64,000 bases of DNA. It comes from a virus. This document shows positions 17,641 through 53,020 of the stretch, piece by piece (the stretch's first letter is position 1; every line of letters begins with the position of its first letter). The position numbers and the translations under genes were made by a program. The notes under the pieces are model-generated. The model did no database searches and was not told the DNA's origin. It saw only the letters and a list, made by a program, of their open reading frames with translations. The stretch spans positions 1-64,000 of the IMG/VR virus record IMGVR_UViG_3300048999_000173, one strand, 5' to 3'.

Positions 17641-18843
17641 TCACGCCGCTAGGGCGTTGATCGCCTCGACCGTGGCCGCCGCGGTCTGGTTACCGGCGTA
17701 CCGAGGTGCGCTGAGCATCCCCGCCACCCGCTCCATCCGCTTCACGATCCACGAAATCTGCTCCTCCACTGGCAACGACAGCACCGCCGCCAGGGCATCG
17801 GCCGCACCCTCCACGTCATCGAGCTGCACGCGCGCCGTCGCCAGGTAGATGTGCGCCAGCCGCTCATCGTCCAGCGACCGCTCATCCGCCGGACCCGACT
17901 GCCACAACGCGATCGCCTCAATGGCCTCCCGCGCCGCGCGCTCCGCATCGTGGCCGCCTTGCAGCCAGATCAGCGAAGACCCCGCGTAGTAGCACTGCTT
18001 CGCCCTCGAGAACCCGAACAGACCCTCCAGGGAGTCCGCCTTGCGGATCCGCTCCCGCGCCGCTTCGGCGCCGTCCAGGGCCTGGTTCGCGGCCCGGCTG
18101 TCTCCCAGGTTGGCCAGGCACTGGGCCTCACCACACCGCAGACGAGTCTCACCGGTCCCGTGCCCGTGACCGACCCACTGGTAGCCGTCCCGCACGTACT
18201 CCAGCGCGCGCCCGTAGTCGCCCTGGAAACGGGCGATCAACGACTTCGTGCCAGCCACCCACGCGGACAGCTCCGCGTCCCCGGCGAACTCCGCGCACCG
18301 CCCGGCCGCCGTCGCATGCTCGAGCGCCTCATCGGCGTCGCCCATGTCCAGCAGCGCATACGACAGCACACCCGACAGGCGTCCGGCCGTCACGTACAGG
18401 TCCGAACGGTCCTGCGGCCGGTGATGCCCCGAACGGATCCGCTCGAACGCCTCACCACGCAGCACGTGCGCCCGGTCCATCATCGGCCCCGGGGGAGACG
18501 CCAGATAGTCGACCGCCGTGACCGCGACACCCTCCTGAAGTTCGGAGATGTCCAGGTCCGCGAGCGCGGACAGGTCCCGCGACATCGCCAACGCCGCCGC
18601 GCGGGTGCGGTGCACGGCCGCGGCCTCACGCCGCGCCAGGTCCTCACGCCGCCACTGAGCGACGAGCCGACCGCCCGCCTGCAGCGCTTCGTCGGCGGCT
18701 TCCGCCACCTCGAGCGGCGCAGGCCTGCGCCCGGTCTCCCAGTGGTGCAGAGACGTCCGGTCGTAGTGGATGTGCTGCGCCAGCCGGGCCAGCGACATGC
18801 CAGCCTCCAAGCGCAGCGTACGAAGCAGCTCCGGGAAGGTCAT
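17641..18843 (-). CDS. XRE-family regulator with TPR-like domain
   Basis: 400 residues from ATG 18843, with GAGGAGGAA about 12 bases upstream. Residues 5-60 are a Cro/CI-type HTH (LLRTLRLEAGMSLARLAQH, YDRTSLHHWETGRRP). Residues 140-390 are repeated helical pairs (ALLDMGDADEALEHATAAG, FQGDYGRALEYVRDG, ANLGDSRAANQALDGAEAA), the TPR-like array common in large Streptomyces XRE regulators that bind peptides or effectors. The length fits that class. It could be the lysogeny repressor or a borrowed host regulator. Confidence 0.85.
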   Translation of the reverse strand: MTFPELLRTLRLEAGMSLARLAQHIHYDRTSLHHWETGRRPAPLEVAEAADEALQAGGRLVAQWRREDLARREAAAVHRTRAAALAMSRDLSALADLDISELQEGVAVTAVDYLASPPGPMMDRAHVLRGEAFERIRSGHHRPQDRSDLYVTAGRLSGVLSYALLDMGDADEALEHATAAGRCAEFAGDAELSAWVAGTKSLIARFQGDYGRALEYVRDGYQWVGHGHGTGETRLRCGEAQCLANLGDSRAANQALDGAEAARERIRKADSLEGLFGFSRAKQCYYAGSSLIWLQGGHDAERAAREAIEAIALWQSGPADERSLDDERLAHIYLATARVQLDDVEGAADALAAVLSLPVEEQISWIVKRMERVAGMLSAPRYAGNQTAAATVEAINALAA

Positions 18844-19497: not shown

Positions 19498-19740
19498 ATG
19501 AAGGATCTCACGACAACCCCTTCCAGGGCACTGCACCCTGACGACTTCGTCCACACGGTCCCCACGGCGACGGCCCCCGGCCGCACCGTCCTGGAGCGTT
19601 TCCCCGCCGGTGCCCCGCGCGGCTCCTGGCCGGCAGAGAAGTTCGCCGCCGACCGGCGCGCCGCCGGACAGCCCGCGACCGTCGTCATGGACCTTCGCAC
19701 CGACAGCTTCCTCGTCGTCGTGAACGGCGGTGCCCGCTGA
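19498..19740 (+). CDS. hypothetical protein
   Basis: 80 residues from ATG 19498, with AGGAGG 11 bases upstream. It contains HPDDFVHTVPTATAPGRTV and a beta-rich end (ATVVMDLRTDSFLVVVNGGAR). First gene of the long rightward operon that ends in the DNA translocase. No family recognised. Confidence 0.65.
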   Translation: MKDLTTTPSRALHPDDFVHTVPTATAPGRTVLERFPAGAPRGSWPAEKFAADRRAAGQPATVVMDLRTDSFLVVVNGGAR

Positions 19741-19976
19741 TGGCCCGCATGTCTCGCCGCGAGATGAACGAACTCGCCGAAGACCGCGACAAGTGCGCGG
19801 CCCGCTCCACCCGCAACGCCGCCTCCGCCAAGGCCGCGGCCGCTGACCCGAACCTCTCCGACAGCCTCCGCAAGCAGGCCTCCGCCACCATCCCGATCGC
19901 CCTCCGCCACGCGCAGGAGTACCGGGAGGAAGCCGCAGCGCTCCGCGAGGGCCGCATCCCCGGAGAGGACTGGTGA
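19740..19976 (+). CDS. charged helical hypothetical protein
   Basis: 78 residues. The ATG overlaps the previous stop (TGATG). Almost entirely helical and charged (SRREMNELAEDRDKCAARSTR, IALRHAQEYREEAAALREG), consistent with a coiled coil. Sits in the translocase operon. Function unknown. Confidence 0.65.
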   Translation: MARMSRREMNELAEDRDKCAARSTRNAASAKAAAADPNLSDSLRKQASATIPIALRHAQEYREEAAALREGRIPGEDW

Positions 19977-20335
19977 CCATGTTCGACGAGACCCCACAGA
20001 CGCCGCAGGAACCGCAGGAGTTGGCCGCGCTGGAGCTGTACCACCAGCTCGTCAACCTGTCCCCGGACAACGGCGACCGCGCCCTCATGGTCACCCTCCG
20101 CCTCCCGAACGGCCGTTACGTCGGCGACGTGTGGCTGTCCGCCTCGGACGTGGAGCAGTTGATCGACGGTGCGCTGACGGTTGCCCAGCACCGCGTCGCG
20201 TTCGGCGCCCCCGAGGAGGCTGCCGGGCCGCTACCGAAGGACGACGACGACATCAGCGACGAGGTCGCGGACGTCATGGCCGGCTTCGACACCGACCTCG
20301 CGGCGCTCCTCGACTCCGAGGGTGGGCAGGCGTGA
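19973..20335 (+). CDS. hypothetical protein
   Basis: 120 residues from GTG 19973 in a GTGA overlap (ATG 19979 is an alternative). Acidic, with a beta-rich middle (ALMVTLRLPNGRYVGDVWL, DVEQLIDGAL) and an Asp/Glu-rich C-terminus (KDDDDISDEVADVMAG). No membrane segment. Part of the same operon. Confidence 0.65.
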   Translation: MTMFDETPQTPQEPQELAALELYHQLVNLSPDNGDRALMVTLRLPNGRYVGDVWLSASDVEQLIDGALTVAQHRVAFGAPEEAAGPLPKDDDDISDEVADVMAGFDTDLAALLDSEGGQA

Positions 20336-20736
20336 TGAACGGCCCGCACGACGTGCACACCGACGGCAACGCCATCCCCCCGCTGGACCGTGAACTCGCC
20401 GGCCTCCTCGAGGACCTCGCCGACGTCCACGACCCCGGCGTCGACCAGATCATCGCCGGACTCCGCCTGATCGCCCTGTCCCGCCACAGCATCGACCGCA
20501 CCCAAACCCTCGTCGCTGTCCTCGCGGGCGGTGATGACGGCACCCACCTCGTCGCCGCGATCGGGCAGGTCATCGCCCGACTCGCCACCCCCGACACCAA
20601 CCCCGCCCTCCGCACCCTGCCCTTCGAGCAGCAGAAACGCGCCCAACTCAACGGCGAAACCACCGCGTTCGTCCTCGCCCACCCCGAACTCGCCCAATTC
20701 GCAGCCGACACCAGCGCCGCCATCGACGGCCTCTGA
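20335..20736 (+). CDS. hypothetical protein
   Basis: 133 residues. The ATG at 20335 overlaps the stop of the previous gene (TGATG). All-helical, with LAGLLEDLADVHDPGVDQII, RTQTLVAVLAGGDDGTHLV and a final AHPELAQFAADTSAAIDG. A GGAAAGGA ribosome site for the next gene follows the stop. No family recognised. Confidence 0.65.
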   Translation: MNGPHDVHTDGNAIPPLDRELAGLLEDLADVHDPGVDQIIAGLRLIALSRHSIDRTQTLVAVLAGGDDGTHLVAAIGQVIARLATPDTNPALRTLPFEQQKRAQLNGETTAFVLAHPELAQFAADTSAAIDGL

Positions 20737-20755
20737 CCCGGAAAGGACCGACCGC

Positions 20756-21019
20756 ATGCCGCTCCCCGCCTGGATGGCCGGACACCGCCCCAAGACCAGC
20801 AAGCCCGACATGTGGAACGGCAAGCCGCTCCCCGTCCGCAACATCACCTACACCGACCTCAACTACCGGCTCTACGACGGCCGAACCGGTGCCCTCCTCT
20901 CCTTCAACTCCACCAACAGCATCGGATCTCTCGTCGCCGACGTCCTCCGCACCCGCGACGAGAACCCCACTGCCCACATCGTCGCCGTCGAATACGACGG
21001 CCCCGCCTACCCCAACTGA
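20756..21019 (+). CDS. hypothetical protein
   Basis: 87 residues from ATG 20756, with GGAAAGGA upstream. Mixed alpha/beta (NITYTDLNYRLYDGRTGALL, SIGSLVADVLRTRDENP, HIVAVEYDGPAY). Separated by only 19 bases from the previous gene, so co-transcribed. No known family. Confidence 0.65.
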   Translation: MPLPAWMAGHRPKTSKPDMWNGKPLPVRNITYTDLNYRLYDGRTGALLSFNSTNSIGSLVADVLRTRDENPTAHIVAVEYDGPAYPN

Positions 21020-21174
21020 CCACCACCCGGGGCCTGGCCGCCGAGCCGACAGACGGCCAGGCCCCACACCGCCGGCCTTCCCGAAGGCTGCACCGCCTCA
21101 CATCCCCCACGGGCGGTGCAGCCCTCAGCAAGACCGGAATCCACCCGACGACCCCCATGCCGAAAGGACACCAG

Positions 21175-21354
21175 ATGCCGAAGGCGAAGAAGCAGAGCCT
21201 GTGGGCCGAAGTCCGCAGCGAGATGAAGAAGTCCAGGCAGGCCAGCAGTGCCCCGTCCGGCTGGGACTGTGCCCGCTGTGGCACCGGCAACGCCGCAAAC
21301 GCCAGCCAGTGCGGATGCGGCGCCGACGCCCGACTGGCAGCCATCCGCTACTGA
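21175..21354 (+). CDS. 59-residue zinc-ribbon protein
   Basis: ATG 21175, with GAAAGGA 9 bases upstream; an upstream in-frame ATG at 21157 lacks a good site. A basic N-terminus (MPKAKKQSLWAEVRSEMKKSRQ) precedes a zinc ribbon (WDCARCGTGNAANASQCGCG, with C-x2-C and C-x-C). Could bind DNA or a partner protein. Confidence 0.6.
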   Translation: MPKAKKQSLWAEVRSEMKKSRQASSAPSGWDCARCGTGNAANASQCGCGADARLAAIRY

Positions 21355-21399
21355 CCACCCACCCGCACACCCGCACACCCGGACCGGAAGGAGCCCGCC

Positions 21400-21576
21400 G
21401 TGGCCACCACACCGAAGACGTTCACCACCGCTCACACCCAGCCCCTCACCAGCGAGGACTACGAGGCCTACTACGTCCTCACCGAAACCACCCGTCGCCA
21501 CCGCTACGGCCTCCGCCTGCAGCACCCGATCCGCGCCATCCGCCACCTCACCCACCGACCCCGCACCGCAGCCTGA
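21400..21576 (+). CDS. 58-residue hypothetical protein
   Basis: GTG 21400 to TGA 21576, preceded by GGAAGGAG 7 bases before the start. It contains LTSEDYEAYYVLTETTRRHRYG and a basic Arg/His end. Too short for a family call. The strong ribosome site and tight spacing support translation. Confidence 0.55.
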   Translation: MATTPKTFTTAHTQPLTSEDYEAYYVLTETTRRHRYGLRLQHPIRAIRHLTHRPRTAA

Positions 21577-21622
21577 CTAGCAACAGCCCTGCCGCCACCT
21601 GAACCCGGAAGGACCACCCGTC

Positions 21623-21895
21623 ATGGACACCACGACCGACACCACCCAGGCCGCCTGGCCGGAGAACGTCACCGCCCGCATCCTCACCCGCCTCGGCATG
21701 TGCGCCCGCGACTTCCACGACGCCACCGTCGACATCATCGACGTCTCCAGCCCCGGCACCAACGGCACCACCACCGCCCTGTGCCGGCCCTGCGGCTGGA
21801 CCCGCCACCACGGCCTCCCCTACCGCGACAAGGCCCTCGAGATGGCCCGCGAGCACGCCGCCGAATGCACCGCCCTCCCGCAGCCCACCACCTGA
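21623..21895 (+). CDS. hypothetical protein with Cys pair
   Basis: 90 residues from ATG 21623, with GGAAGGA upstream. It carries an ENVTARILTRLGMCARDFHD segment and CRPCGW, one CxxC pair with further Cys and His residues (HHGLPY, HAAECTA), suggesting a metal site. Lies directly before the membrane protein gene of the translocase operon. Confidence 0.6.
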   Translation: MDTTTDTTQAAWPENVTARILTRLGMCARDFHDATVDIIDVSSPGTNGTTTALCRPCGWTRHHGLPYRDKALEMAREHAAECTALPQPTT

Positions 21896-21939
21896 CCACC
21901 AGCCCCCGATCCCGCCCCACACCCAGGAAGGACCCGCCC

Positions 21940-23133
21940 ATGCTCTCCACAGTGCAGAACGCGGTCGAGCAACTGCCCGTACAGGCATGGGCCGTCCTGC
22001 TCGCCACCCTCACCCTCGTCTTCGGCTACCGCATCGCCCGCAAGACGACGCCGAACACCAAAACCGAGCCCGGCCGGGACAAGATCGAGCGGCGCACCCT
22101 CATCGGCTTCACCGGCATGGGCCTCGTCGCCCTCCTCGGCTTCGGCCTCTCCGCCAACACCAGCATCCGCTTCGCCGAAAAACGCCTCCACATGGAGGCC
22201 CCCTGGACCCTCACCATCGGCCTCGCCCTCGAAGGCATCGTCCTCGGACTCACGCTCTACTCCTGGGCCTTCGACGACAAGGGCACCGCCCGCGCCGCCT
22301 ACCTCCTCGTCCTCGCCCAGGCAGTCGGCGCCATCGAAGTCGTCCGCCAGGAACACGAAGACGCCGGCACCGCCCTCGTCCGCATCGTCGGCCCCGTCAT
22401 GCTCGCCTACGGCCTCCACAAGCTCCTCGGGCTGGAAGCCAAGCTGGGGAAGCTGAAGATCACATCGGACGGCATGATCGCCCGACTGTGGCGGGACCGC
22501 CTGAAGCGGCTCGAGAGCAAGCTCGGCATCGGATCCCGCGGCGCCGACGCCGAAGCCATCTCCCGCAGCAACGCCGCCGACAAGTTCGTCAACCTCAACT
22601 CCGTTGGGAAGCCCGCGCTCATGACCGACCGCATGTACCGGCGCGCGCTCGTGAAGGCCGGCCGGGCCGCCCTCCACGGCCTCGACGGCTTCGAGCGGCA
22701 GATGGCCGAAGCCGTCCTCGTCGACCGGATCGCCTACGAGAAGGGCATGCAGAAGGGCGGTGACCACTTCGAGGTGGCCCTCATGCGGGGCGTGCGGTCG
22801 AACACCGGATCGCTGGAACTGGACGCGTCCTCTCCGGCTGCACTCGGCTTCCTGACCAGCGCGGCTATCGAAGCCGCACCCGCGAGCCGAGCCGAAGACG
22901 CACCCCAGCCGCACGACGACAAGCCGCAGCCGCGTTCGAACCCCGCCGCGACCGAAGCCGAGCGGAAGGCCCGCGCGTTCCGCGTCTACGCCGACCTTGG
23001 ACAGCCCTCCCAGCGCGCCTTCATCAAGGTGTGGCGGGAGCGCGGATTCGGCGAGTCCGACCAGACCGTCCGCGAGCTCTACAACGAGATGCACGAGGCC
23101 TTCGAGAACGCCCGCAAGGGAGACACGGCCTGA
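21940..23133 (+). CDS. multipass membrane protein, Spd/transfer-like
   Basis: 397 residues from ATG 21940 (AGGAAGG upstream). Four hydrophobic segments lie in residues 12-165 (WAVLLATLTLVFGYRI, TGMGLVALLGFGLSA, LTIGLALEGIVLGLTLYSW, AYLLVLAQAVGAIEVV), followed by a long cytoplasmic part with helical and Pro-rich linkers. The overall form, a membrane domain followed by a cytoplasmic helical tail and placed upstream of an FtsK/TraB translocase, matches plasmid-spread accessory proteins of actinomycete conjugative elements. Exact family not certain. Confidence 0.65.
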   Translation: MLSTVQNAVEQLPVQAWAVLLATLTLVFGYRIARKTTPNTKTEPGRDKIERRTLIGFTGMGLVALLGFGLSANTSIRFAEKRLHMEAPWTLTIGLALEGIVLGLTLYSWAFDDKGTARAAYLLVLAQAVGAIEVVRQEHEDAGTALVRIVGPVMLAYGLHKLLGLEAKLGKLKITSDGMIARLWRDRLKRLESKLGIGSRGADAEAISRSNAADKFVNLNSVGKPALMTDRMYRRALVKAGRAALHGLDGFERQMAEAVLVDRIAYEKGMQKGGDHFEVALMRGVRSNTGSLELDASSPAALGFLTSAAIEAAPASRAEDAPQPHDDKPQPRSNPAATEAERKARAFRVYADLGQPSQRAFIKVWRERGFGESDQTVRELYNEMHEAFENARKGDTA

Positions 23134-23645
23134 TGCGCCAGCCGACTACCGAACAGCGTCCGCAGGCCGCCCCCCGGCCTGCGGTGCCCCTGCACGTTCC
23201 CGCACCGCCGCGATCGGCCCCGGCCCCCCTCCCGGTACCGCCCGCCGCACCCGACTGGCCTTCGCGCTGGCACCTTCTCCTCCCCGCCGGCGTCCGCAAC
23301 CAGATGGCCGCGCTCGGGCTGTGGCAGAACCCGGTACCCCTGTGCCCCTCCCTGCACCTCGAGCAGACCCTCGCCGTCCTCGAACGCTACGGCTGGGCCC
23401 GCAGCCTCGACTTTTCCCCCACCGGCCGCATGTGCATCCGCGGCTCCCAAACCCTCCTCGAGCGCACCGGGCACGTCACCCCCGCCGCGCGCGCGAGGGC
23501 CGTCGACTTCATGCAGCAAACCCTCCAGGAACACGGCTACCACCAGCCGTTCTTCGCCTGGAACGACCACCAGGAACGCACCCTCACCCACGTCCGCAAC
23601 CTGATCCTCACCTCCGCCCATGCCGCCCGATCCAACGGAGAATGA
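23133..23645 (+). CDS. DUF6197-like protein
   Basis: 170 residues from ATG 23133, overlapping the previous stop. After a Pro/Ala-rich N-terminal 40 residues it shows the pattern LHLEQTLAVLERYGWARSLD, GRMCIRGSQTLLERTGHVTP and PFFAWNDHQERTLTHVRNLI, close to the DUF6197 layout (..GW....G..C..GA....WND..RT...V). Function unknown, but the family recurs in actinomycete mobile elements. Confidence 0.65.
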   Translation: MRQPTTEQRPQAAPRPAVPLHVPAPPRSAPAPLPVPPAAPDWPSRWHLLLPAGVRNQMAALGLWQNPVPLCPSLHLEQTLAVLERYGWARSLDFSPTGRMCIRGSQTLLERTGHVTPAARARAVDFMQQTLQEHGYHQPFFAWNDHQERTLTHVRNLILTSAHAARSNGE

Positions 23646-23647
23646 CC

Positions 23648-24358
23648 ATGAACGAGTACAACGACCCCAACGCCGACTTCAACGGCATCATCAACAACGC
23701 GTTCACCCCCAACCCGGCCACAAACCCGCAGGTCACACCCGGGCAGACCTACACCAGCCCGGCCGGCTTCTACACCGACACCCACACCGGCACGCACGGC
23801 CCCTACGGCCCGCCGCCCGCCCACCAGGCCCGCCCCGTCAAGACCGGCCTCACCCCCCGCGGGAAGGCCGCCCTCGCTATCGCCGCGACCATCTGCGCCG
23901 GCGGCGGCCTCCTCGGGTGGCAGCACTACGCCGCCGCCCAGGCGGCCAACCAGGTCAAGGCCCAGGAACTGCGGATCGAGCAGCAGAAGCTCGCCATCGA
24001 GCAGCAGAAAGCCCTCGACAAGGCCACGCAGACCGCGCAGAAGACCCAGAGTGCGGCCGACGCGAACCGGCAGAAGAAGATCGACGCCTGTGTGCAGGCC
24101 AACCGCGGCCTGGTCGGCAAGCAGCTCGGCGCGACCCTCTCCTCCGTCATCCAGGACTGCCAGACCCAGTACCCGGCCACCGCCGGGACCGGCGACATGC
24201 AGGAGGCGGCGACGTCCAGCACCACCGGCGGCAGCGGAAACGCCACCGACATCCTCCTCGTCGGAGGTGCCGCCCTCGCCCTCGGTGTCGGATTCGCCGT
24301 CAGGCGCGCCACCCGCCCCGCACCGGCCCCCGTCTACACCGGATACCCCACCCACTGA
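23648..24358 (+). CDS. membrane protein with coiled coil
   Basis: 236 residues. ATG 23648 is chosen because GGAG at 23637-23640 is 7 bases away, while ATG 23642 is too close. Residues 1-70 are Asn/Pro/Gly-rich, then a TM segment (residues 75-92, KAALAIAATICAGGGLLG), a coiled coil (ELRIEQQKLAIEQQKALDKAT), a Cys-containing segment and a second TM near the end (DILLVGGAALALGVGFAV). This looks like a two-TM envelope protein acting with the translocase. No family recognised. Confidence 0.65.
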   Translation: MNEYNDPNADFNGIINNAFTPNPATNPQVTPGQTYTSPAGFYTDTHTGTHGPYGPPPAHQARPVKTGLTPRGKAALAIAATICAGGGLLGWQHYAAAQAANQVKAQELRIEQQKLAIEQQKALDKATQTAQKTQSAADANRQKKIDACVQANRGLVGKQLGATLSSVIQDCQTQYPATAGTGDMQEAATSSTTGGSGNATDILLVGGAALALGVGFAVRRATRPAPAPVYTGYPTH

Positions 24359-24360
24359 CC

Positions 24361-24457
24361 TACTTCCCACTCACTTCCCGGCCAGGAAAACCCCAGCTCA
24401 CACCCCCACAACCGGCGAAGATCCTGGATCTTCGCCCTGGCCGGGAGGTGGGAAGTA
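24361..24457. repeat. nested long inverted repeat in the translocase operon
   Basis: Outer arms 24361-24386 and 24436-24457 pair over more than 20 positions (TACTTCCCAC ... CCCGGCCAGG and complement, with a small bulge), and a second hairpin inside (24414-24436, GGCGAAGATC / GATCTTCGCC, 3-base loop) fills the loop. It occupies the only sizeable gap in the operon (24359-24489). Terminator, mRNA-processing site or a DNA target for the transfer machinery are all possible. Confidence 0.65.
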
Positions 24458-24489
24458 AACGACCTTCACCCACGGGAGGAACCCGACTC

Positions 24490-26655
24490 ATGGCGAGCGA
24501 CACCGCCCCCGCCGCACCCGGCCCGGACGCCCCCGACATGCCCGCCCACGCCCCCCACCCGGCGACCGGAGCACCGGACGCCCCGACCCGCGGAGGCCTG
24601 GGCTGGCTCGCATCCGCCCTCCAGCCCGTCGACCCCGCCCGCCCCACCTTCGACCTCACCCCCACCCTGGGCGACACCACCGCCGACCTGAACGGCATCG
24701 ACCTCACCGCCCTCACCGGCGGGCCCGGCGGCGGCCCGTCCAGCGCCGCCTACCACGACGGCACCACCCCCCCCACCGACACCACCGGCACGAACAGCGC
24801 CGGCGGCCAGGAGAAGAGCATCGTCCGCGCCTGGCTCCTCGCCGGCGCCGAACGCTGGCGCAAGGGCGCCGACGCCCGCAACAAGGCGTTGGACATCCAA
24901 AAGGCCAAGGCCACCGCCCTGCAGGTCAAGGAGTCCCGCACCGTCAACCGCTCCGAGAAGATCGTCGGAGGGGGAACCAGCTCCGCCACCAGCGGCAAGA
25001 CCGACGCCGGGAAGTCGAACACCAGCAAGACCAGCAACTCCGGCCCGGGCGGGGCGAAGAACGGCTCCGCCGGCGGTAAGAGCACAGGGTCCGGCGCTGG
25101 CTCGGGGGCCGGTGGCCGCGGTGGAGGATCCGGCACCGGACGAGGAAACGGGGCGGGTACGGGCGGCGGCCGCGGCGGCACCAGGGGCAGCGACGCCGGC
25201 ACCAGCAAGGACCCGAAGACCAATCACGCCAAGGGCGCCGACCACACCAAGTCCCCCAGCCCCTCCAACAGCGGCGGGAAGCCCGGCAAGGACGGCCCGT
25301 CCGGCAGCCACGGCTCCTCCGGGAAGCTCGGCAAGGACACCGCCTCCCACAACGGCAGCGGGAAGAGCCCCAAGCAGCAGACCACCAGCACCTGCGGCGA
25401 CGCGTCCGGCATCAGCATGACCAAGGACAAGAAGCCCAAGGCGCCCAAGGACACCAGCGGCGACACCACGGCGGCCGCCCCGAAGACGCCCAAGCCGTCA
25501 CCCACGAAGAACCCGCCCCAACCGGGAAGCGGCACGCCGGGCCCCAAGGGCGGCCCGGGCGCGGGCGGGGGAGCGGGCGGCACCACTACACCCGGCGCGG
25601 GGACCGGCAAGCCCGTCGACATGAAGAAGAACCCCGACCTCAAGGGCGGCGACAAGACCAAGCCCAGCACCGACACCACCGGCCGCACCGACCTCACGAA
25701 GAAGCCCAAGACCGACCCCAAGATGCCGAGGGCCGGCGAGCAGCAGACCACCGGGCCGACCGTCCGCACCCAGGCCACCCGCGAAGCCGGATACCGCGAC
25801 GGCACCCGCCTCGGCACCGCCGTCGCCCACGCCGGCGCCTACAAGGACGGGGTCAAGGACGGCTACCGCGACACCTCCGAGGCTGCCGCCCGCGAGAAGG
25901 ACCGCCTCGACAAGGCCCACCAGAAGCACAAGCCGGGCGCCGCACCGCAGCCCGCCCCGGCACCCATACCGCCCAAGCCGACCGTTCCGCCGAAGCCCAC
26001 CACACCACCCCCCACCCCCACAGCCACCCCCCGCCCGGGCCCCGCAGCAGCGCCCAAGCCGACCAAGCCCACCACCGTCCCCGACCCGCGTACCGCCCTG
26101 ATGAAGCCCAAACCCAAGCCGAAGCCTGACCCCAAGGAGGCACCCGTGGCCGCCCCCAGCAGCGCCGACTACCACCCCCCGCAGCGACCAGCCGACACCC
26201 CGATCGGCGTCTCCCGCGTGGGCCAGACCCACGTCGTCCTGGACAGCGGACAGGTCATCTCCCGCGGCGAAGTCCGCAACCTCAAGGACTACGAACGGCG
26301 CTTGGACGAGAAGACCATCGCGATGCACAAACTCGCCGACCTGGCCAAAGCCCTCCAGGCGCACGCCCAGGACCAGAACAAGGAAGTCACCACCCTCCTC
26401 GAGCAGGCCCGCACCAAGTCCGTCGGCGCCACCCTCATCGGAAACCTGACCAGGCTCCAGGAACGCACGGCCCTCCAAGCCCACCAGGCAACCGAACTCC
26501 TCAAGCGGGCCGTTCGGGCAGCCGAGTCCACCACCGTCCTGCTCGCCAACGTGACCACCCGCTACGGCGGCATCTACAAGGCCGTCTGCGACTCCCCACT
26601 CGAGATCCCCGGCGAACTCGACTTCTACGACGACAGGACGGCCACCAGTGTCTGA
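24490..26655 (+). CDS. very large low-complexity transfer-associated protein
   Basis: 721 residues from ATG 24490, with GGGAGGA upstream. Residues 100-160 are helical (AWLLAGAERWRKGADARNKAL). Residues 160-480 are Gly/Ser/Lys-Pro low complexity. Residues 430-480 hold GYRDGTRLGTAVAHAGAYKDGV and GYRDTSEAAAREKDRLD, a motif pattern I associate with Streptomyces plasmid transfer loci. Residues 490-570 are a Pro/Lys linker and 600-720 a long coiled coil. Placed just before the translocase, it may tether or organise it; the role is inferred. Confidence 0.65.
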   Translation: MASDTAPAAPGPDAPDMPAHAPHPATGAPDAPTRGGLGWLASALQPVDPARPTFDLTPTLGDTTADLNGIDLTALTGGPGGGPSSAAYHDGTTPPTDTTGTNSAGGQEKSIVRAWLLAGAERWRKGADARNKALDIQKAKATALQVKESRTVNRSEKIVGGGTSSATSGKTDAGKSNTSKTSNSGPGGAKNGSAGGKSTGSGAGSGAGGRGGGSGTGRGNGAGTGGGRGGTRGSDAGTSKDPKTNHAKGADHTKSPSPSNSGGKPGKDGPSGSHGSSGKLGKDTASHNGSGKSPKQQTTSTCGDASGISMTKDKKPKAPKDTSGDTTAAAPKTPKPSPTKNPPQPGSGTPGPKGGPGAGGGAGGTTTPGAGTGKPVDMKKNPDLKGGDKTKPSTDTTGRTDLTKKPKTDPKMPRAGEQQTTGPTVRTQATREAGYRDGTRLGTAVAHAGAYKDGVKDGYRDTSEAAAREKDRLDKAHQKHKPGAAPQPAPAPIPPKPTVPPKPTTPPPTPTATPRPGPAAAPKPTKPTTVPDPRTALMKPKPKPKPDPKEAPVAAPSSADYHPPQRPADTPIGVSRVGQTHVVLDSGQVISRGEVRNLKDYERRLDEKTIAMHKLADLAKALQAHAQDQNKEVTTLLEQARTKSVGATLIGNLTRLQERTALQAHQATELLKRAVRAAESTTVLLANVTTRYGGIYKAVCDSPLEIPGELDFYDDRTATSV

Positions 26656-27028
26656 CCTGACCAACAAGCAGCTCCAGGCCCGAACCATCGCGATTGCCAA
26701 GCAGGCCGCCCGCAGCAGCCAAGAGATCAACCAGGTGGCCTCGCTGTTCGCTGAGGAAGCCCGCGACACCCGCCGCATCGTCAACATGATCGGCTCGAAG
26801 AAGGTCGACCCCGACACGGTGGCGGAGACGGAAGAACTCGCAAAGATCATCGACGGGCTGTCGGACGCCGCCCTCACCTACGCCACCACCACCGAGGACA
26901 CCTCCCGCAGCGCCGACTGGACCGCACAAACGGCCCGCACCGTCCACGACAACATCGGCGAACAGGTCAACCGCTCGCCGGCCCGCAACATCCACGACGT
27001 CCAACGCGAATGGCTCCAGCAGCAGTAA
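26648..27028 (+). CDS. helical hypothetical protein
   Basis: 126 residues from GTG 26648, overlapping the previous stop by 8 bases. All-helical (NKQLQARTIAIAKQAARSSQ, EINQVASLFAEEARDTRRIV, ETEELAKIIDGLSDAAL), with no TM segment, reminiscent of small partner proteins of type IV or conjugation ATPases. 52 bases from the translocase start. Confidence 0.65.
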   Translation: MSDLTNKQLQARTIAIAKQAARSSQEINQVASLFAEEARDTRRIVNMIGSKKVDPDTVAETEELAKIIDGLSDAALTYATTTEDTSRSADWTAQTARTVHDNIGEQVNRSPARNIHDVQREWLQQQ

Positions 27029-27080
27029 CCCCCGCCCACACCGTCACCACCCGCCAACCCGACAGGAGAACCCGCCCCTC

Positions 27081-29408
27081 ATGACCACGGCCACCACCAC
27101 CCAGCACCGGCCCGGCACCGAGCGCGCCATCGCCGCCGTCACCGCCGCCGCCCCCGTGGCCGTCGGCATCCTCACCCCCTTCCTGGACGGCGACGCCACC
27201 ACCGTCCTCGCAGGCACCTACGTTGCAGCCAGCGCCCTCACCATCAGCAACGCCATGAACTTGATCCCAGCCGACCTCGCCGAACAACTCCCCGCCTCCG
27301 ACGTCCTGAAGGCACACAAGGCCACCCTGTTCGGATCCACCCTCACCACCGGCCTCGCCCTCGCCATGGGCTCCTTCGCAGGCGGGCCCGGCGCCGACGC
27401 GCTGATGCTCGGCTGGCTCCACACAGCCTCCAACCCGATCCCCGGGATCGTCTCCCTCGGCTGGTGGGCCGCCACCCTCCTCGTCCCCTACAAACTGCGC
27501 CGCATCCTCTGGCCCACCCGCGCCCGCAAGACCGCCCAGCCCGCCCGCCCGCAGCGTCCGGCCCAGCACCCGGCCATGCCCGCCCTTCCCCCCGACGTCC
27601 ACGACATCCTCGCCAAGTGGGGCCAGCACATCTCCCCGGACACCGGCACCCACAAGGGACAAGTCCTCCACGTCACCCACTTCGTCCCCGGCCGGTACTG
27701 GAAGGGAACCATCACCGCCACCACCCCCGGCGCCCCCGTCACCGTCACCCCCGAAACCGTCTCCGGCGTCTACCGCAAGCCCGCCGAATGGATCCACATC
27801 AACACCGGTGCACACGCAGGGGAACGCCACATCACCGTCAACCTGACCGCCCCACCGGAACTCGACACCAGCACTCTCCAAGGCGCCTGGCGCAAGTGGG
27901 CCGCCCGCTCCGGCGGCATCATGGCCGACACCCACCTCGAGAACGTGCAGGACGACCCCAACACCGGCGGCCAAGTCGCCGTCGTCGTCGCCGGAGAGAA
28001 CCTCGACAAGCTGCCAGTCCCCGACCGGGCCTCCCTCGCCGGAGCCCTCCGCACCAAGCCTCTCCTCATCTCCTACGAGCTGCGCCAGGACCCCCGCCAG
28101 GCCGTCATCCGCAAGATGGACCGCAACCCCCTCCAAGACGGCGCCGAATTCCCCGGCCTCCACGTCCTCAAGCCCAACGCCAACGGCTACATCCAGATCG
28201 GCCCCGGCATCAGCGGCTTCCCCGCCCGCATCCAACTCCACGACCCGAAACTGGGCGGCCAGCACGTCATCGTCGCCGGCGTCACCGGATCCGGGAAAGG
28301 CGGAACCCTCCAACTCATCGCCCTCGCCCACCACACCAGCGGATCAGCGATCATCTACGCCGACCCCAAGGGCTCCAGCAACCCCGCCATCACCAAGATG
28401 GCCGCCTACTCCGGCCTCGGCGAAGACGCCGCAATGGGCGCCCTCCGCATCTGGTACCACGGCCTGATGCGCCGCATCGAAGCGTCAGCGCGCGCGGAGA
28501 TGAAGAACTTCAAGCCCGCCAAGGACCGCCCCTGGGCCCCCCTCATCTTCGACGAGGCCAGCACCTTGCTGACCTCCGCCACCTACAAGAAGGAAGCCGT
28601 CCACATCATCAAGGACGGAGCAAAAAAGGGCCGCTCCCTCGGCATGCCGATCGTCCTCGCCAACCAGATCCTCCAACTGGCTGAACTGGGCGGCGAATCA
28701 GCCATCCGCGACAACATGTTCTACGGCGGCTCCCTCATCCTCCTGCGCTCCGACAGCTCCCAGAAGCACCTCGTCGACCTCCCCGACACGTTCGCCGGCT
28801 GCAACCCCGCCGACATCCCCCCCGCCTGGGCCGAAGACCGCGCCCTCGTCTTCGACCCCAACACCCCCCAGAACGACCCCATCCGCACCTTCGGCCTCAA
28901 CTTCTGCGCAGCCCCCGGCGCGCACGCCGAAATGTCCCGCACCTGGATCCTCGAGGACGCCACCCCCTACATCGAACAGGACAACGTCGGCATCCCTCAC
29001 GACTGGCCCTTCTGGGAAGACCGCCACGAACTCGCCCAGATCTCCGTCCTCCCCGACGGCGAAGGCAACGAGGACGACGACTACGAAGGCGGATCAGCCG
29101 GCACCTTCCTCACCGGACTCGACATCGGCCCGAAGAAGCCCGCCAGCGCCGACGACAAGATCCTCACCGCGCTCAAGGACGTCGCCGACCCCATGGGCCT
29201 CGAGTCCATCTACCTCGACAAGCCCACCATCACGCGGATCACCAGCGTCGAAGGCTCCACCCTCGACAACGCCCTCTCCCGCCTCGCCACCAACGGCAAA
29301 ATCCACCGCCAGATCAAGGACGGCAAGGAGATCCGCGGCATGTACGCCCACGGCCCCCGCCCCATCACCCCCACCGACGAGACCGACAACGGAGACGCGA
29401 CAACCTGA
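27081..29408 (+). CDS. FtsK/SpoIIIE-type membrane DNA translocase (TraB-like)
   Basis: 775 residues from ATG 27081 (GACAGGAG upstream). Four hydrophobic segments in residues 15-140 anchor it. The motor domain has a Walker A of the form GVTGSGKGG (K at about residue 406, G where S/T is usual) and Walker B LIFDEAS (D491, E492), with a RecA-like core between them and a winged-helix-like C-terminus (YLDKPTITRITSVEGSTLDNAL). FtsK/TraB proteins pump double-stranded DNA. In Streptomyces, TraB moves conjugative plasmids between hyphae without a relaxase. It lies at the end of the membrane-protein operon and before the phage terminase genes. Confidence 0.9.
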   Translation: MTTATTTQHRPGTERAIAAVTAAAPVAVGILTPFLDGDATTVLAGTYVAASALTISNAMNLIPADLAEQLPASDVLKAHKATLFGSTLTTGLALAMGSFAGGPGADALMLGWLHTASNPIPGIVSLGWWAATLLVPYKLRRILWPTRARKTAQPARPQRPAQHPAMPALPPDVHDILAKWGQHISPDTGTHKGQVLHVTHFVPGRYWKGTITATTPGAPVTVTPETVSGVYRKPAEWIHINTGAHAGERHITVNLTAPPELDTSTLQGAWRKWAARSGGIMADTHLENVQDDPNTGGQVAVVVAGENLDKLPVPDRASLAGALRTKPLLISYELRQDPRQAVIRKMDRNPLQDGAEFPGLHVLKPNANGYIQIGPGISGFPARIQLHDPKLGGQHVIVAGVTGSGKGGTLQLIALAHHTSGSAIIYADPKGSSNPAITKMAAYSGLGEDAAMGALRIWYHGLMRRIEASARAEMKNFKPAKDRPWAPLIFDEASTLLTSATYKKEAVHIIKDGAKKGRSLGMPIVLANQILQLAELGGESAIRDNMFYGGSLILLRSDSSQKHLVDLPDTFAGCNPADIPPAWAEDRALVFDPNTPQNDPIRTFGLNFCAAPGAHAEMSRTWILEDATPYIEQDNVGIPHDWPFWEDRHELAQISVLPDGEGNEDDDYEGGSAGTFLTGLDIGPKKPASADDKILTALKDVADPMGLESIYLDKPTITRITSVEGSTLDNALSRLATNGKIHRQIKDGKEIRGMYAHGPRPITPTDETDNGDATT

Positions 29409-29702: not shown

Positions 29703-29731
29703 AGGTTGGGGCTGCGGCACACCCCCAACCT
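29703..29731 (-). terminator. hairpin overlapping the lipoprotein stop
   Basis: AGGTTGGGG (29703-29711) pairs with CCCCAACCT (29723-29731). It is immediately downstream of the leftward lipoprotein coding end, so it may terminate that transcript and shield the transfer operon from antisense. Confidence 0.5.
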
Positions 29732-30177
29732 CACGCACCCGGATGCGACCGGAACCACGCCACCATCCGCTGCAACGGCAACCCCACCGCCAGCATGTTC
29801 CCCCTCCCCGCCAGGTTGTCCCGACCGTAGTGATCGGCCTGCGCATCCGCCTGGCCCACGTACCCGATGGGCTCCGCATACACCGTGGCGTCCGCCGCCT
29901 TCATCGCATCCCGCACCCGGTCGGCCGCCGCCAGCTTCCGCGTCATGAACGCCTGACAGTCCGCCGCGTCCGTACACCCCGGCGCCACCACCTCCTGATA
30001 CGCCGCCAACGCCTCACGCGGCGACAACGCGGCCGCAGACGAGGCCGCGGCCGACACGGACGCAGACGACCCAGCGCCCGCCGTCTCGTCCCCGCCACTG
30101 CTCGAGCAGCCCGCCACCAACACCCCCACGACCACCGCACACACGGCCGCCGCCCCCCTCACACCCATACGTCTCAT
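29731..30177 (-). CDS. phage-encoded lipoprotein, possible superinfection-exclusion factor
   Basis: 148 residues from ATG 30177. A signal peptide (RRMGVRGAAAVCAVVVGVLV) ends in the lipobox LVAGC, so Cys would be lipidated and the protein anchored outside the membrane. The mature part is Ser/Ala-rich and then helical (ALAAYQEVVAPGCTDAADCQ, with Cys pairs). It is the only gene facing leftward between the translocase and the tail/lysis region, the usual placement of a lysogeny-expressed moron. Exclusion of related phages is a guess. Confidence 0.75.
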   Translation of the reverse strand: MRRMGVRGAAAVCAVVVGVLVAGCSSSGGDETAGAGSSASVSAAASSAAALSPREALAAYQEVVAPGCTDAADCQAFMTRKLAAADRVRDAMKAADATVYAEPIGYVGQADAQADHYGRDNLAGRGNMLAVGLPLQRMVAWFRSHPGA

Positions 30178-30242
30178 CCGCGCAGGATGACCCCACACCC
30201 CGGCCAGGGGGAACACACAGGCGGAAATCGGCGATCATTCGA

Positions 30243-30290: not shown

Positions 30291-30848
30291 ATGGCCTGGT
30301 CGAAATACAAGCTGGACGAAGTCATCGTCCGCCGCACCAAACTCCTCGAGCTGCGCCGCCAAGGCGTCCGATACGACGACGAGCGCATCGAGAAGCTCGG
30401 CTACAGCAGCCCCGGCGCCGCCCGCAAAGACCTCGCACGCGCCCTCGAAGCCCACCGCGACGAGGAAGCCGCCGAGGTCGGCATCTACCGGCAGCAGGAG
30501 AACGAACGCCTCGACGCCCTTCTCGAGGCCGTATGGTCGCGCGCCACCACCCTCTCACCCGTCCTCGATAAGGAAGGCGAGGTCATAGACCACGTCCTGG
30601 ACGTGAAGGCCGTCGACACCGTGCTGCGCCTCATGGACCGCCGCGCCAAACTCAACGGCCTTGACATGCCCGTCAAGGCGGAACTGTCCGGGCCCAACGG
30701 AGGCGCCCTGAGGATCGGGCCGGCCGGAATCGATGAACTGAACAAGCTGATCAACATGGCTGGCGACCCCGACGCCGAAGACGACGCCCCGGTCGAAGAC
30801 GAAGAACTGGAAGACGGCGACGTGGATGACGACGGCGACCACACCTGA
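30291..30848 (+). CDS. terminase small subunit
   Basis: 185 residues from ATG 30291. The N-terminal region (TKLLELRRQGVRYDDERIEKL, GYSSPGAARKDLARALEAH) is an HTH-like DNA-recognition domain, followed by a long helix (EVGIYRQQENERLDALLEAVW) and a strongly acidic tail (DDAPVEDEELEDGDVDDDGD). Small terminases bind phage DNA and hand it to the large subunit. It overlaps the large terminase start by 23 bases, which is the normal order. Confidence 0.85.
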   Translation: MAWSKYKLDEVIVRRTKLLELRRQGVRYDDERIEKLGYSSPGAARKDLARALEAHRDEEAAEVGIYRQQENERLDALLEAVWSRATTLSPVLDKEGEVIDHVLDVKAVDTVLRLMDRRAKLNGLDMPVKAELSGPNGGALRIGPAGIDELNKLINMAGDPDAEDDAPVEDEELEDGDVDDDGDHT

Positions 30849-32442
30849 CCAGTGGGACGGCCTCGAAGAACACGAAGTCGTCCAAGAGGCCGAAGCCCTC
30901 CTCCAACTCGTCGCCCGCTACCGGCGCCTCAACCGCGCCCAACGCCGCCGCATCGCCTTCCAGGCCAGCCCCGAAGTCCGCAGCGTCCTGGCCCAGGTCG
31001 AGTGCGACATGGCGCTCGAGCGATCCCCCGGCTCGATGGCCGCAGTCCTCACCGACGGACGCGAAAAGCAGGCCCGCCACCTCGACCTGATCGACCGAGT
31101 GTTCCGCGACATCGCCCGCGGCCACTCCCGCAAGGTCCTCATCACCATGCCCCCACGGCACGGCAAGTCCCGCCGCGCCGCCCGCTGGGCCCCCCTGTGG
31201 TTCCTGTCCCGGCACCCCGACCGCCGCGTAATGATCGCCTCCTACAGTGCCGACCTCGCCGACGACCACGGCCGGTGGATCCGCGACGCGATCGTCTCCT
31301 ACGGCCCCCAACTCGGCCTCGCCCTCCACGCCGGATCCAAGGCCGCCAACCGCTTCGACCTCGCCGACCCCGAGACCGGAGAACGCCTCGAAGGCGGCCT
31401 CGTCACCGCAGGCGTCGGCGGAGGCCTCACCGGCAAGGGCGCCCACCTCGCGATCGTCGACGACCCCATCAAGGACGCCGCAGACGCCGAATCACCCACC
31501 ATGCGCAAACGGCTGTGGGAGTGGTGGACATCCGTCCTCAACACCCGCGTCGAACCCGGCGGATCCATCATCGTCATCCAGACCAGATGGCACGAAAAGG
31601 ACCTCGCCGGCCGCATCCTCGAAGGCGAAGACGCCTCCGACTGGACCGTCATCGACCTGCCCGCGATCTGCGACAGCGAAGACGACCCCCTGGGCCGGGA
31701 GATCGGACAGCCGCTGTGGCCCATCCGATACGGCCTCAAAGCCCTCGAGAAGATCCGGCGCGCGGTCGGGGAACGCGTCTGGTGGTCCCTCTTCCAGCAG
31801 AAGCCACGCCCCCTCGAAGGCGGCGTGTGGAAGTGGCCATGGATCACCGACAACCGGATCAGTGCCGAGCGCTACCGGGCTGTCGACCTTTCGCGCACCG
31901 TCGTCGCCGTCGACCAGGCCGGAGGCGAGGGCGACACCCACGACGAGACCGGCATCATCGGCGCCGGCCGGACCACCGACGGCAACATGTACGTCCTCGC
32001 CGACCGGTCGGCGAACATGGGCGCGGACACGTGGGGGCACGTAGCGTGCCGCCTGGCCATCGAGCTGAAGGCCGACGCGTTCGTCGTCGAAGACAACTTC
32101 GGCGGCGACCAGTCCTCCCAGATCATCCGTCAGGCTTGGCGTGACCTGCAACGATCCGGGGAGACGGAGGGCCTCATCATGCCCCTGATCATCCCCGTGC
32201 ACGCCAAGCAGGGTAAGAAGCTTCGCGCCGAACCCATCGGCCAACTCGCTGCGCAGGCCCTCATCCACCACGTCGGCGAGTTCCCCCGCCTCGAAGGCCA
32301 GTTGGTCACCTGGATACCCGGCATGGATTCCCCGGACCGTATGGACGCCTACGTTCACGCCCTCACCGAACTTGCCGACCCTGCGCAAGAGGGCATCGGC
32401 GCTCAGCAGTATTCCGACCAGCGCCTCCGAGGCCGCCGCTGA
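30826..32442 (+). CDS. terL: terminase large subunit
   Basis: 538 residues from ATG 30826. ATPase half: Walker A TMPPRHGKSR (K114), Walker B LAIVDDP (D212-D213). Nuclease half: VVAVDQAGG (D363), later VVEDNFGGDQ and a DRMDAYVHALTEL block, the acidic RNase-H-like cluster. It cuts concatemers and pumps DNA into the capsid. Length fits the family. Overlaps the small subunit gene. Confidence 0.95.
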   Translation: MTTATTPDQWDGLEEHEVVQEAEALLQLVARYRRLNRAQRRRIAFQASPEVRSVLAQVECDMALERSPGSMAAVLTDGREKQARHLDLIDRVFRDIARGHSRKVLITMPPRHGKSRRAARWAPLWFLSRHPDRRVMIASYSADLADDHGRWIRDAIVSYGPQLGLALHAGSKAANRFDLADPETGERLEGGLVTAGVGGGLTGKGAHLAIVDDPIKDAADAESPTMRKRLWEWWTSVLNTRVEPGGSIIVIQTRWHEKDLAGRILEGEDASDWTVIDLPAICDSEDDPLGREIGQPLWPIRYGLKALEKIRRAVGERVWWSLFQQKPRPLEGGVWKWPWITDNRISAERYRAVDLSRTVVAVDQAGGEGDTHDETGIIGAGRTTDGNMYVLADRSANMGADTWGHVACRLAIELKADAFVVEDNFGGDQSSQIIRQAWRDLQRSGETEGLIMPLIIPVHAKQGKKLRAEPIGQLAAQALIHHVGEFPRLEGQLVTWIPGMDSPDRMDAYVHALTELADPAQEGIGAQQYSDQRLRGRR

Positions 32443-50920: not shown

Positions 50921-53020
50921 GTGGACATCGGCAAGGAACTCGTCCGCCTCCAGAAGCAGGTCACCACCCTGCAGCGCTCCCCGCGCCTTAACCACGCCTC
51001 CATCGAGGACACGGCCATCCTGGTCAACGACGGCACGGGGAGCCTGCGCGGCATCATCGGCGTCCAGGCGGACGGCACCACCGCGGTGAACGTCGTCAAC
51101 GGACCGCCCCCGCCCCAGACGTCCGCGCCGATCGTCGCCTCCGTCCTCGGCGGCGTCACCGTCTCCTGGGACGGCCTCTTCGCCGGCGGCGCCGTCATCC
51201 CCCTGGACTGGGCCCGCGTCGAAGTCCACGCCTCCATCACCCCCGTCTACGACCCAATCGCCGCCACCCTGCAGGGCACCATCGAGACCGCGCAGGGCGC
51301 CACCGTCGTCGTCCCCTGCGACACACCCGTATACGTCCGCCTGGTGGCCCGCAACACCTCCGGCACCGCATCCACGCCCTCGGACACCGTGGGACCGCTC
51401 GGGCCGATCGCTGTGGTCGCCGACGACATCCTGGACGGCATCGTCACCACGGCGAAGCTCGCCGACGACGCGGTCACCGCAGCGAAGGTCGCCACCGGCG
51501 CCATCGACGTGGACGCCCTCGCCGCCGCCGCCGTGACAGCGGCGGCCATCGCCGCGGACGCCGTCACGGCGACCGCGATCGCCGCCGGAGCGGTCGGCAG
51601 CACGGAACTCACCGCGGCCGCCGTCACCGCCGCGAAGATCGCCGCCGGAGCCGTCATCGCGGGCAAGTTGGACGCGGCCAGTGTCGTCGCCGGGAACATC
51701 GCCGCCGCCGCCGTCCAGGCCGGGAACCTGGCCGCGAACAGCGTCCAGGCGGGGAACATCGCCGCCAACGCCGTCCAGGCCGGCACCGTCGACGCGAACG
51801 CCATCACCGCCCGAGAAATCGCCGCACTCGCCGTCACCGCCGGGAAGATCGCCGCGAACGCGGTCACCGCGGGCACCATCAACGCGGGCGCCGTCACCAC
51901 CGCCAGCCTCGCCGCCGGATCCGTCGACGCCACCGCCCTGTCCGCAACCGCCATCACCGGCAAGACCATCACCGGCGGCACCGTCACCGGCGCCCTCATC
52001 CAGACCGCCGCGTCCGGCCAGCGCATCACCCTCAACGAGTCCTCCGCCAACAAGATCCTCGTCTACAACGCCTCCGGCACCGCCATCGGGGAACTGTCCG
52101 CCAGCGGACTCCTCGTCAAGGGCACCAACGGGTCGGTGCTCCAACTGGACCCGAACGCCACGTACCCGAACTTCAAACTGACCAACGCAGCCGGCACCAA
52201 TGCAGCCGTCATCAACGTCGTCGGCACCAACGCCTTCATGGGCCTGAACTCCGGTCTCTTCACCTCCGGCGCAGTCACGGACTGGAAATGGCGGACCCTC
52301 TTCGGCAGCGACGGCACCAACGAGATATGGGTAGCAGAACGCGTCCGGGACTCCAGCACCAGCACCTACCTCGGCGGCCGCGTCCTTCTAGACGCCAGCC
52401 ACGCCGTCATCGGCTTCGGCGACAGCAGCGGCGCCAGCCCGGACAACTACCTCCGGCTGTACTCCGGACTCTCCCAGTTCCTGTCGAGCCGTCTCGAGGT
52501 ATTCGCCCCGGCCTCCAGTAGCAGCACCTTCTACCTCCAGGCCGACTCCGGCCAGACCGGGAACCTGCTGCGCATCAACGTCGGCGCGACCTCGGACAAG
52601 TTCACCGTCGACAAGGACGGCAACGTCACCGCCGCCGGGGACGTCACCTCAACCCCCATCAAGACCACCACCGGGCTCACCGCGGGCAGCGGCTTCACCA
52701 TCAACACCGGCGGCTTCACCGGCTACAAGGTCGGCAAACAGGTCGTCATCGACATGTACCTCCACCGCTCGGGCACCACCATCACCTCCAGCAGCGGCAA
52801 CATCACCGACACGACGGTCGCGACCCTTCCCGCCGGATGGCGGCCCACCAGCGGCACCATCAACGCCGCCTGGGACGACGGCACCACCTCCGGCGGCTGG
52901 GTCGTCGGCACCGACGGCATCTGCACCCTGCGCACCAGCATCAGCGACATCGTCGGCGACGCCACCACCGCCGGATCCGGGCGCAACCTGCGCTTCCACA
53001 TCGCCTTCATCCAGGACTAG
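50921..53020 (+). CDS. tail fibre with decapeptide-repeat shaft
   Basis: 699 residues from GTG 50921. Residues 1-175 attach to the baseplate (DIGKELVRLQKQVTTLQRSP, then an Ig-like stretch). Residues 175-354 consist of about 18 copies of a ten-residue repeat of the type V-x-A-G-x-I-A-A-N-A (51443-51982), a fibrous shaft. Residues 360-699 are a beta-rich tip (SANKILVYNASGTAIGEL, DWKWRTLFGSDGTNEIWVAE, RNLRFHIAFIQD) that probably binds the cell surface. Codon use is ordinary. Confidence 0.8.
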   Translation: MDIGKELVRLQKQVTTLQRSPRLNHASIEDTAILVNDGTGSLRGIIGVQADGTTAVNVVNGPPPPQTSAPIVASVLGGVTVSWDGLFAGGAVIPLDWARVEVHASITPVYDPIAATLQGTIETAQGATVVVPCDTPVYVRLVARNTSGTASTPSDTVGPLGPIAVVADDILDGIVTTAKLADDAVTAAKVATGAIDVDALAAAAVTAAAIAADAVTATAIAAGAVGSTELTAAAVTAAKIAAGAVIAGKLDAASVVAGNIAAAAVQAGNLAANSVQAGNIAANAVQAGTVDANAITAREIAALAVTAGKIAANAVTAGTINAGAVTTASLAAGSVDATALSATAITGKTITGGTVTGALIQTAASGQRITLNESSANKILVYNASGTAIGELSASGLLVKGTNGSVLQLDPNATYPNFKLTNAAGTNAAVINVVGTNAFMGLNSGLFTSGAVTDWKWRTLFGSDGTNEIWVAERVRDSSTSTYLGGRVLLDASHAVIGFGDSSGASPDNYLRLYSGLSQFLSSRLEVFAPASSSSTFYLQADSGQTGNLLRINVGATSDKFTVDKDGNVTAAGDVTSTPIKTTTGLTAGSGFTINTGGFTGYKVGKQVVIDMYLHRSGTTITSSSGNITDTTVATLPAGWRPTSGTINAAWDDGTTSGGWVVGTDGICTLRTSISDIVGDATTAGSGRNLRFHIAFIQD
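51443..51982 (+). repeat. 30-bp coding tandem repeat in the tail fibre
   Basis: About 18 units of 30 bp encode ten-residue repeats such as VTAAKVATGA, VQAGNIAANA and VTAGKIAANA. Phase is exact across the array, but units differ at most third positions, showing old duplication under protein-level selection. Confidence 0.75.

Follow-up and report, generated by a model that had tools for sequence, protein, structure and literature searches.

Plasmid-phages of Streptomyces are reported both to conjugate and to make virions, and transfer of one of them, pZL12, is reported to require a tra gene and two of its neighbors. The operon of pSLE1 was annotated by its authors after pZL12, a plasmid-phage (PMC4487206). 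The spd genes of Streptomyces affect intramycelial spread and stability, and on pIJ101 the SpdA2 protein binds palindromes within its own gene (PMC4170104). Here we analyze the segment at 19498-29408 of the viral record IMGVR_UViG_3300048999_000173; the window comprises bases 1-64000 of this 83,576-base record. We estimate a probability of about 0.8 that this segment is a tra/spd-type operon for conjugal transfer, carried by a phage-plasmid of Streptomyces that belongs to the pZL12/pSLE1/pSAM1 group, based on gene order, homology, the fold and motifs of the motor, conservation of the slot that the operon occupies, and occurrence of the operon on plasmids lacking virion genes. The initial annotation had placed the operon inside a temperate phage; the element is not a new kind of temperate phage but a further case of a known plasmid-phage group, in which spread by two routes was already recognized.

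Comparison with known elements

The plasmid-phage pZL12/phiZL12 (GQ919031) resembles the window in its terminase, portal and small terminase (60-66%), in a membrane protein (73% identical) and a recombinase (84% identical), and in an FtsK-like operon that shares its location and direction. It differs in its motor, pZL12.71c, and its low-complexity protein, both of a different type and without BLAST similarity to those of the window, and in having ParA/ParB, which were not found in the viral record. A close homology between the window motor and pZL12.71c was ruled out, as the two are distantly similar at the profile level only. The circular Streptomyces plasmids pSLE1, pSAM1 and NBC_01435 share with the window the motor type (47-61% identity), the companion genes and the slot upstream of the terminase, but have other membrane-protein types, with site arrays in that gene; pSLE1 and pSAM1 also carry a GntR regulator, unlike the window. 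The pCQ3 and pCQ4 plasmids (Streptomyces sp. W9/W75) have a similar terminase (62-63%) and a slot operon annotated as traA/traB (plasmid transfer), although their TraB is of a distant type, with 21-28% identity to the others.

Among ordinary plasmids, the Tra/TraB-type translocases of the pIJ101 kind have an FtsK-like ATPase, a C-terminal winged-helix/MarR-like domain, small partner genes and a divergent regulator, as in the window. However, their similarity to the window motor is at the profile level only, and no clt was found in the window. Linear plasmids, pSCL2 among them, have the same type of motor (type A), together with transmembrane, low-complexity and coiled-coil genes, but no virion genes.

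The operon and its motor

Open reading frame (ORF) analysis revealed a single co-directional operon encoding about 14 small, membrane, low-complexity and coiled-coil proteins, with the motor gene last. It opens with an ATG at 19498 preceded by AGGAGG and ends with the motor at 29408. About eight small proteins come first, followed by a membrane protein, a DUF6197 protein, a second membrane protein, a low-complexity protein, a coiled-coil protein and the ATPase (Table 1). Because stop and start codons overlap between genes (19740, 19973-19976, 20335, 23133, 23642-23645 and 26648-26655), the sequence suggests one transcription unit. The arrangement is not a chance one, since homologous genes stand in the same order in pSLE1, pSAM1 and NBC_01435. 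The initial annotation had described a membrane-anchored FtsK/TraB-like motor with membrane partners, a coiled-coil protein and a large low-complexity protein, directly followed by terminase and a full virion set. All of these operon genes are present at 19498-29408, and genes for both terminase subunits, portal, capsid, tail and lysis follow. The terminase adjoins the operon but lies outside its tight unit, because an 883-bp gap holding a minus-strand ORF separates the motor from the small terminase gene.

The motor contains a Walker A motif (GVTGSGKGG) and a Walker B motif (PLIFDEAS), and in the family alignment the Walker A residues G403, G405 and K406 and the Walker B residues D491 and E492 are invariant. 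In its AlphaFold model, helices occupy residues 12-143, the core is FtsK-like and residues 690-757 form a winged helix; the mean pLDDT (predicted local distance difference test score) is 74.7, with mostly 84-95 in the ATPase and 50-62, a low confidence, in the membrane part. The top Foldseek matches of this predicted model are the FtsK motor (5e-11) and the coupling protein TcpA of the conjugative plasmid pCW3 (1e-10), and this resemblance to both FtsK and a conjugation protein supports the transfer function; lower-ranked matches include SIR2/HerA structures. A profile built from 19 motor relatives matches PDB entries of FtsK at 3e-5, and the family profile aligns with pIJ101 Tra over the motor and C-terminus (hhalign 88.7%, E 2.6e-6). 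The family libraries give sub-threshold matches only, among them HerA_C at 19.5 bits. As modeled, the RecA-like core, the two Walker motifs and the FtsK fold place the protein in the FtsK/HerA superfamily of DNA translocases, and the predicted N-terminal membrane segments, FtsK motor and C-terminal winged helix give it a TraB-type layout.

Conservation of the slot upstream of the terminase

The motor had no match at E 1e-5 among 50,697 phage records. It matched 163 plasmid records, nearly all from Streptomyces, the best being mostly plasmids of 85-94 kb. A profile scan found type-A motors in 35 genome contigs, of which 34 are named Streptomycetaceae and one is titled 'Actinobacteria bacterium'. 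The terminase, portal and capsid genes of the element are 51-86% identical to homologues in the pZL12/pSLE1 group, and the order of membrane, DUF6197, transmembrane, low-complexity, coiled-coil and motor genes directly upstream of the terminase is kept in pSLE1, pSAM1 and NBC_01435.

We surveyed this slot in 34 plasmids with a terminase at least 57% identical. A translocase operon lies directly upstream of the terminase in 32 of the 34, and 13 kb upstream in CP054917. The sole operon-less plasmid is Kitasatospora CP108485, in which one protein search and two profile searches found no translocase, and which offers a natural control for the contribution of the operon. This 91-kb circular phage-plasmid of Kitasatospora sp. 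NBC_01246 (L098; L-numbers are our labels for fetched relative loci) has a terminase 60% identical to that of the window and carries, near the slot, a gene resembling type III polyketide synthases (PhlD) with its neighbor. More distant prophages with a related terminase have no translocase operon. The motors in the slot are themselves of different types, A (window), A2, B1-B3 and C, with 21-28% identity between types or profile similarity only. Because the motors differ so widely, with at least four very different types in one slot, transfer modules are swapped wholesale between plasmids and phage-plasmids. The divergent regulator is itself swapped, being of the helix-turn-helix (HTH)-tetratricopeptide repeat (NsdA-like) type in the window, GntR in pSLE1, pSAM1, pZL12 and pCQ4, and another HTH protein in pCQ3. 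Linear plasmids of 107-323 kb (S. zaomyceticus, S. clavuligerus pSCL2 and NBC_01116) carry the type-A operon too, and their whole records contain no terminase or capsid homologue.

Proposed function and alternatives

The exchange of unlike motors in one slot argues that these motors share a DNA-translocase role. Since the slot is kept, its unlike motors are interchangeable and the operon is shared with ordinary plasmids, it appears to be a module for transfer and not part of the virion. Spread both as virions and from cell to cell, as the initial annotation had proposed, is the best explanation of these observations, in keeping with the traA/traB annotation of the slot genes in pCQ3 and pCQ4 and the reported tra requirement of pZL12. 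We infer by extension that this element itself transfers; as a kind of element it is not new. While the element is a prophage-plasmid, the regulator encoded at 17641-18843 would probably control the operon. The 775-residue motor would anchor in the membrane, form a ring like that of FtsK, with hyphal tips or cross-walls as the probable location, and pump double-stranded element DNA into a neighboring hypha. The membrane protein encoded at 21940-23133, the second membrane protein and the low-complexity and coiled-coil proteins may form an envelope complex or load DNA, and may serve intramycelial spread. Once the element is induced, the same DNA would be packaged by the terminase and virion genes, giving two routes of spread. 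The earlier suggestion that TraB alone does the pumping fits poorly, as theta-type elements such as pZL12 need neighboring genes. The assignment as a conjugation-type FtsK/TraB-like translocase module in a phage genome is supported, whereas membership in TraB proper is not, given the sub-threshold Pfam FtsK_SpoIIIE score of the motor and its distance from pIJ101 Tra.

Several results weigh against a transfer operon. The motor scores 13.6 bits against Pfam FtsK_SpoIIIE, under the curated cut-off of 24 (pIJ101 Tra scores 38.8 bits). The 83.6-kb record, possibly an incomplete one, yielded no ParA/ParB homologues. The literature covered, which excludes the original pZL12 and pFP4 papers, contained no transfer assay of a type-A motor. 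Lastly, searches for exact 8-mer clusters, tandem repeats and the pJV1 clt consensus revealed no clt-like repeats in the window, so the predicted 8-bp sites did not materialize. In the whole record, no cluster of clt-type 8-bp repeats rises above background except the protein repeats at 51.4-52.0 kb. The pJV1 consensus search gave two adjacent CCGCACACC at 21363-21379, within a window total of 4 that is below the chance mean of 8.3. Copies of GGCTTCG/CGAAGCC at 22551-22954 were rejected as a site, since they do not exceed synonymous-codon shuffles.

The operon might instead ensure stable inheritance, with the motor and a DNA-binding membrane protein distributing plasmid copies within the mycelium and across septa and no transfer to another strain. 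The reported effects of spd genes on intramycelial spread and stability (PMC4170104), the failure to find ParA/ParB in this record and the HTH-like C-terminus of the membrane protein all suit this explanation. We nevertheless consider it unlikely: relatives hold both ParA/ParB and the operon, the architecture is that of transfer modules, and pZL12 transfer is reported to depend on its tra genes. An exclusion or defense module, in which a HerA-like translocase acts against other phages or plasmids, would account for the weak HerA_C match, the SIR2/HerA structures among the lower-ranked fold matches and the lipoprotein-like ORF that adjoins the motor. It is very improbable, however, as no nuclease or SIR2-like partner was recognized in the operon, the best fold matches are FtsK and TcpA, and N-terminal membrane helices with a winged helix suit a transfer motor. 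The position of the motor gene right before the terminase could also hint at a virion role, such as DNA packaging, ejection or genome entry. But the element has its own terminase and portal, Kitasatospora CP108485 carries the same virion genes with no detectable motor, and motorless prophages with a related terminase exist. We reject this hypothesis, to which we give almost no weight, because the same operon is present on linear plasmids without terminase or capsid homologues.

Motif arrays in the membrane-protein gene of relatives

In many relatives, a single 7-8 bp motif is densely repeated within the gene equivalent to 21940-23133, at irregular intervals and mostly in both orientations. These arrays comprise 6-40 copies of a lineage-specific motif (for example L003:10855-11493, L004:2322-2809, L020:2677-3227, L022:1745-2333, L121, L126 and L144). 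Of the 43 loci that had enough upstream DNA, a few of which are the same contig retrieved twice, 31 have the array as their strongest repeat cluster in the 9 kb flanking the motor on each side; 229 control windows held no comparable cluster (at least 16). The motifs are TGAGCCG (pSLE1, NBC_01435, L020, L042, L050), TGATGCG (pSAM1, pCQ3/4, L089, L097), CGAGACC (L022), CGGTCCG (L126, L133, L135, L136, L144), CGCTCAC (L124, L127, L134, L142), CCGTACC (L091), CCGAAGC (L121), CGTCACG (pSCL2) and CTGCCAG (L030). Most arrays are features of the DNA itself, because their exact copies exceed all 500 synonymous-codon permutations (e.g. 12 versus a maximum of 6; 40 versus 25); the L022 array fails this test (15 versus 17).

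We rejected the idea that the motif tracks motor type, as the same motif is found with unlike motors: TGAGCCG with types A, B2 and another, TGATGCG with A, A2 and C, CCGAAGC-type motifs with A, A2 and B1 (L121, L068, L081), and CTGCCAG with A and B1 (L030, L014). It tracks instead the C-terminal HTH-like region of the encoded membrane protein, a linkage that is partly automatic through co-inheritance, the array lying within the gene. Proteins with similar N-termini and different C-termini have different motifs, as in L123/L126 (85% identical over the first 666 nucleotides) and NBC_01435/pSCL2 (50% identical N-termini). An exception is L080 (2197-3105), with a pZL12-type motor, which has a pSAM1-type membrane protein (86% identical) and a TGATGCG array that is mostly mutated away. 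The window, pZL12, L065, L087, L100 and L113 share another membrane-protein type, in which no array was seen.

These arrays, previously undescribed, are candidate clt or centromere sites. We tentatively propose, as a possibility that we hold to be somewhat doubtful, that the DNA is chosen by the upstream membrane protein and not by the motor: the HTH region would read the array, a clt or centromere embedded in the very gene that encodes this region, and the two would be swapped together as a cassette usable with unlike motors. The window element, with its pZL12-type membrane protein and no array, would then be a variant whose site was lost or replaced.

Neighboring genes and state of the element

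The membrane protein encoded at 21940-23133 sits at the position of SpdB2/DUF2637-like proteins, and its positional equivalent in L030 has a Pfam DUF2637 match. The small gene at 21623-21895 has homologues in pSLE1 and NBC_01435. The divergent gene at 17641-18843 likely regulates the tra operon. The lipoprotein-like ORF at 29731-30216 may possibly act in surface or superinfection exclusion; several relatives have minus-strand ORFs in the motor-terminase gap, one of them also lipoprotein-like (L042:8674-9411). In some relatives, the terminase gene is split by intein- or intron-like HNH or LAGLIDADG endonuclease insertions (L096:11692-13565, L097:11860-13568, L100:10923-13463). Tandem repeats with 30-bp and 120-bp units occur in tail-fibre-like and structural genes of the window (51442-51902 and 57946-58179).

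Past the window end, the record encodes an HTH protein and a DciA-like protein, which in relatives lie beside ParB/ParA. Near the record end are genes for a DUF5131 protein (E 2e-83; L094:18618-19442, record 82.5-83.3 kb) and for a cytosine-C5 DNA methyltransferase (L094:2748-4157, record 66.6-68.1 kb). The 83,576-base record has no end repeats; by analogy with its relatives, the element probably exists as a plasmid prophage.

Table 1. Features of the operon and its surroundings in the window.
Feature	Position	Strand	Evidence
Divergent HTH-tetratricopeptide repeat regulator, NsdA-family-like	17641-18843	-	NCBIfam NF053720 (5.5e-27); Pfam HTH_31
First small operon gene, 80 amino acids, AGGAGG ribosome site	19498-19740	+	ORF and upstream sequence
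Two small overlapping genes (19740-19976, 19973-20335)	19740-20335	+	ORFs; second weakly similar to a pSAM1 operon gene
Small protein conserved in pSAM1, pSLE1 and pZL12 operons	20335-20736	+	53-68% identity
Small genes (20756-21019; 21175-21354, zinc-ribbon-like; 21400-21576; 21623-21895, zinc-ribbon-like)	20756-21895	+	ORFs
Membrane protein, C-terminal HTH-like region	21940-23133	+	73% identical to pZL12.73c
DUF6197 protein, kept in most type-A operons	23133-23645	+	Pfam PF19698 (7e-16)
Membrane protein, coiled-coil and hydrophobic segments	23642-24358	+	Sequence; homologues in pSLE1, pSAM1, NBC_01435
Large Gly/Lys/Pro-rich low-complexity protein, 721 amino acids, conserved ends	24490-26655	+	Sequence, homology
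Small coiled-coil protein, 126 amino acids, directly before motor	26648-27028	+	Sequence, homology
FtsK/TraB-like membrane-anchored DNA translocase, 775 amino acids	27081-29408	+	Membrane helices, RecA-like ATPase, C-terminal winged helix
Lipoprotein-like ORF between motor and terminase	29731-30216	-	Sequence; no Pfam match
Small terminase subunit	30291-30848	+	Position; 66-72% identical to pZL12, pSAM1, pSLE1, NBC_01435; PHROG 645
Large terminase subunit	30826-32442	+	PHROG 38 (7e-97)
Portal, major capsid, neck, tape measure, tail, endolysin and holin genes	32518-58665	+	Database matches
Tyrosine recombinase	60519-61601	+	84% identical to pZL12.36c

Implications

Our analysis places an uncultivated viral contig among Streptomyces elements able to spread both as a virus and as a conjugative plasmid. 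The array found in its relatives is a more original lead than the operon itself. A literature source names clt solely for rolling-circle plasmids; for theta-type and linear plasmids of Streptomyces, the arrays provide a strong candidate cis-acting transfer site.

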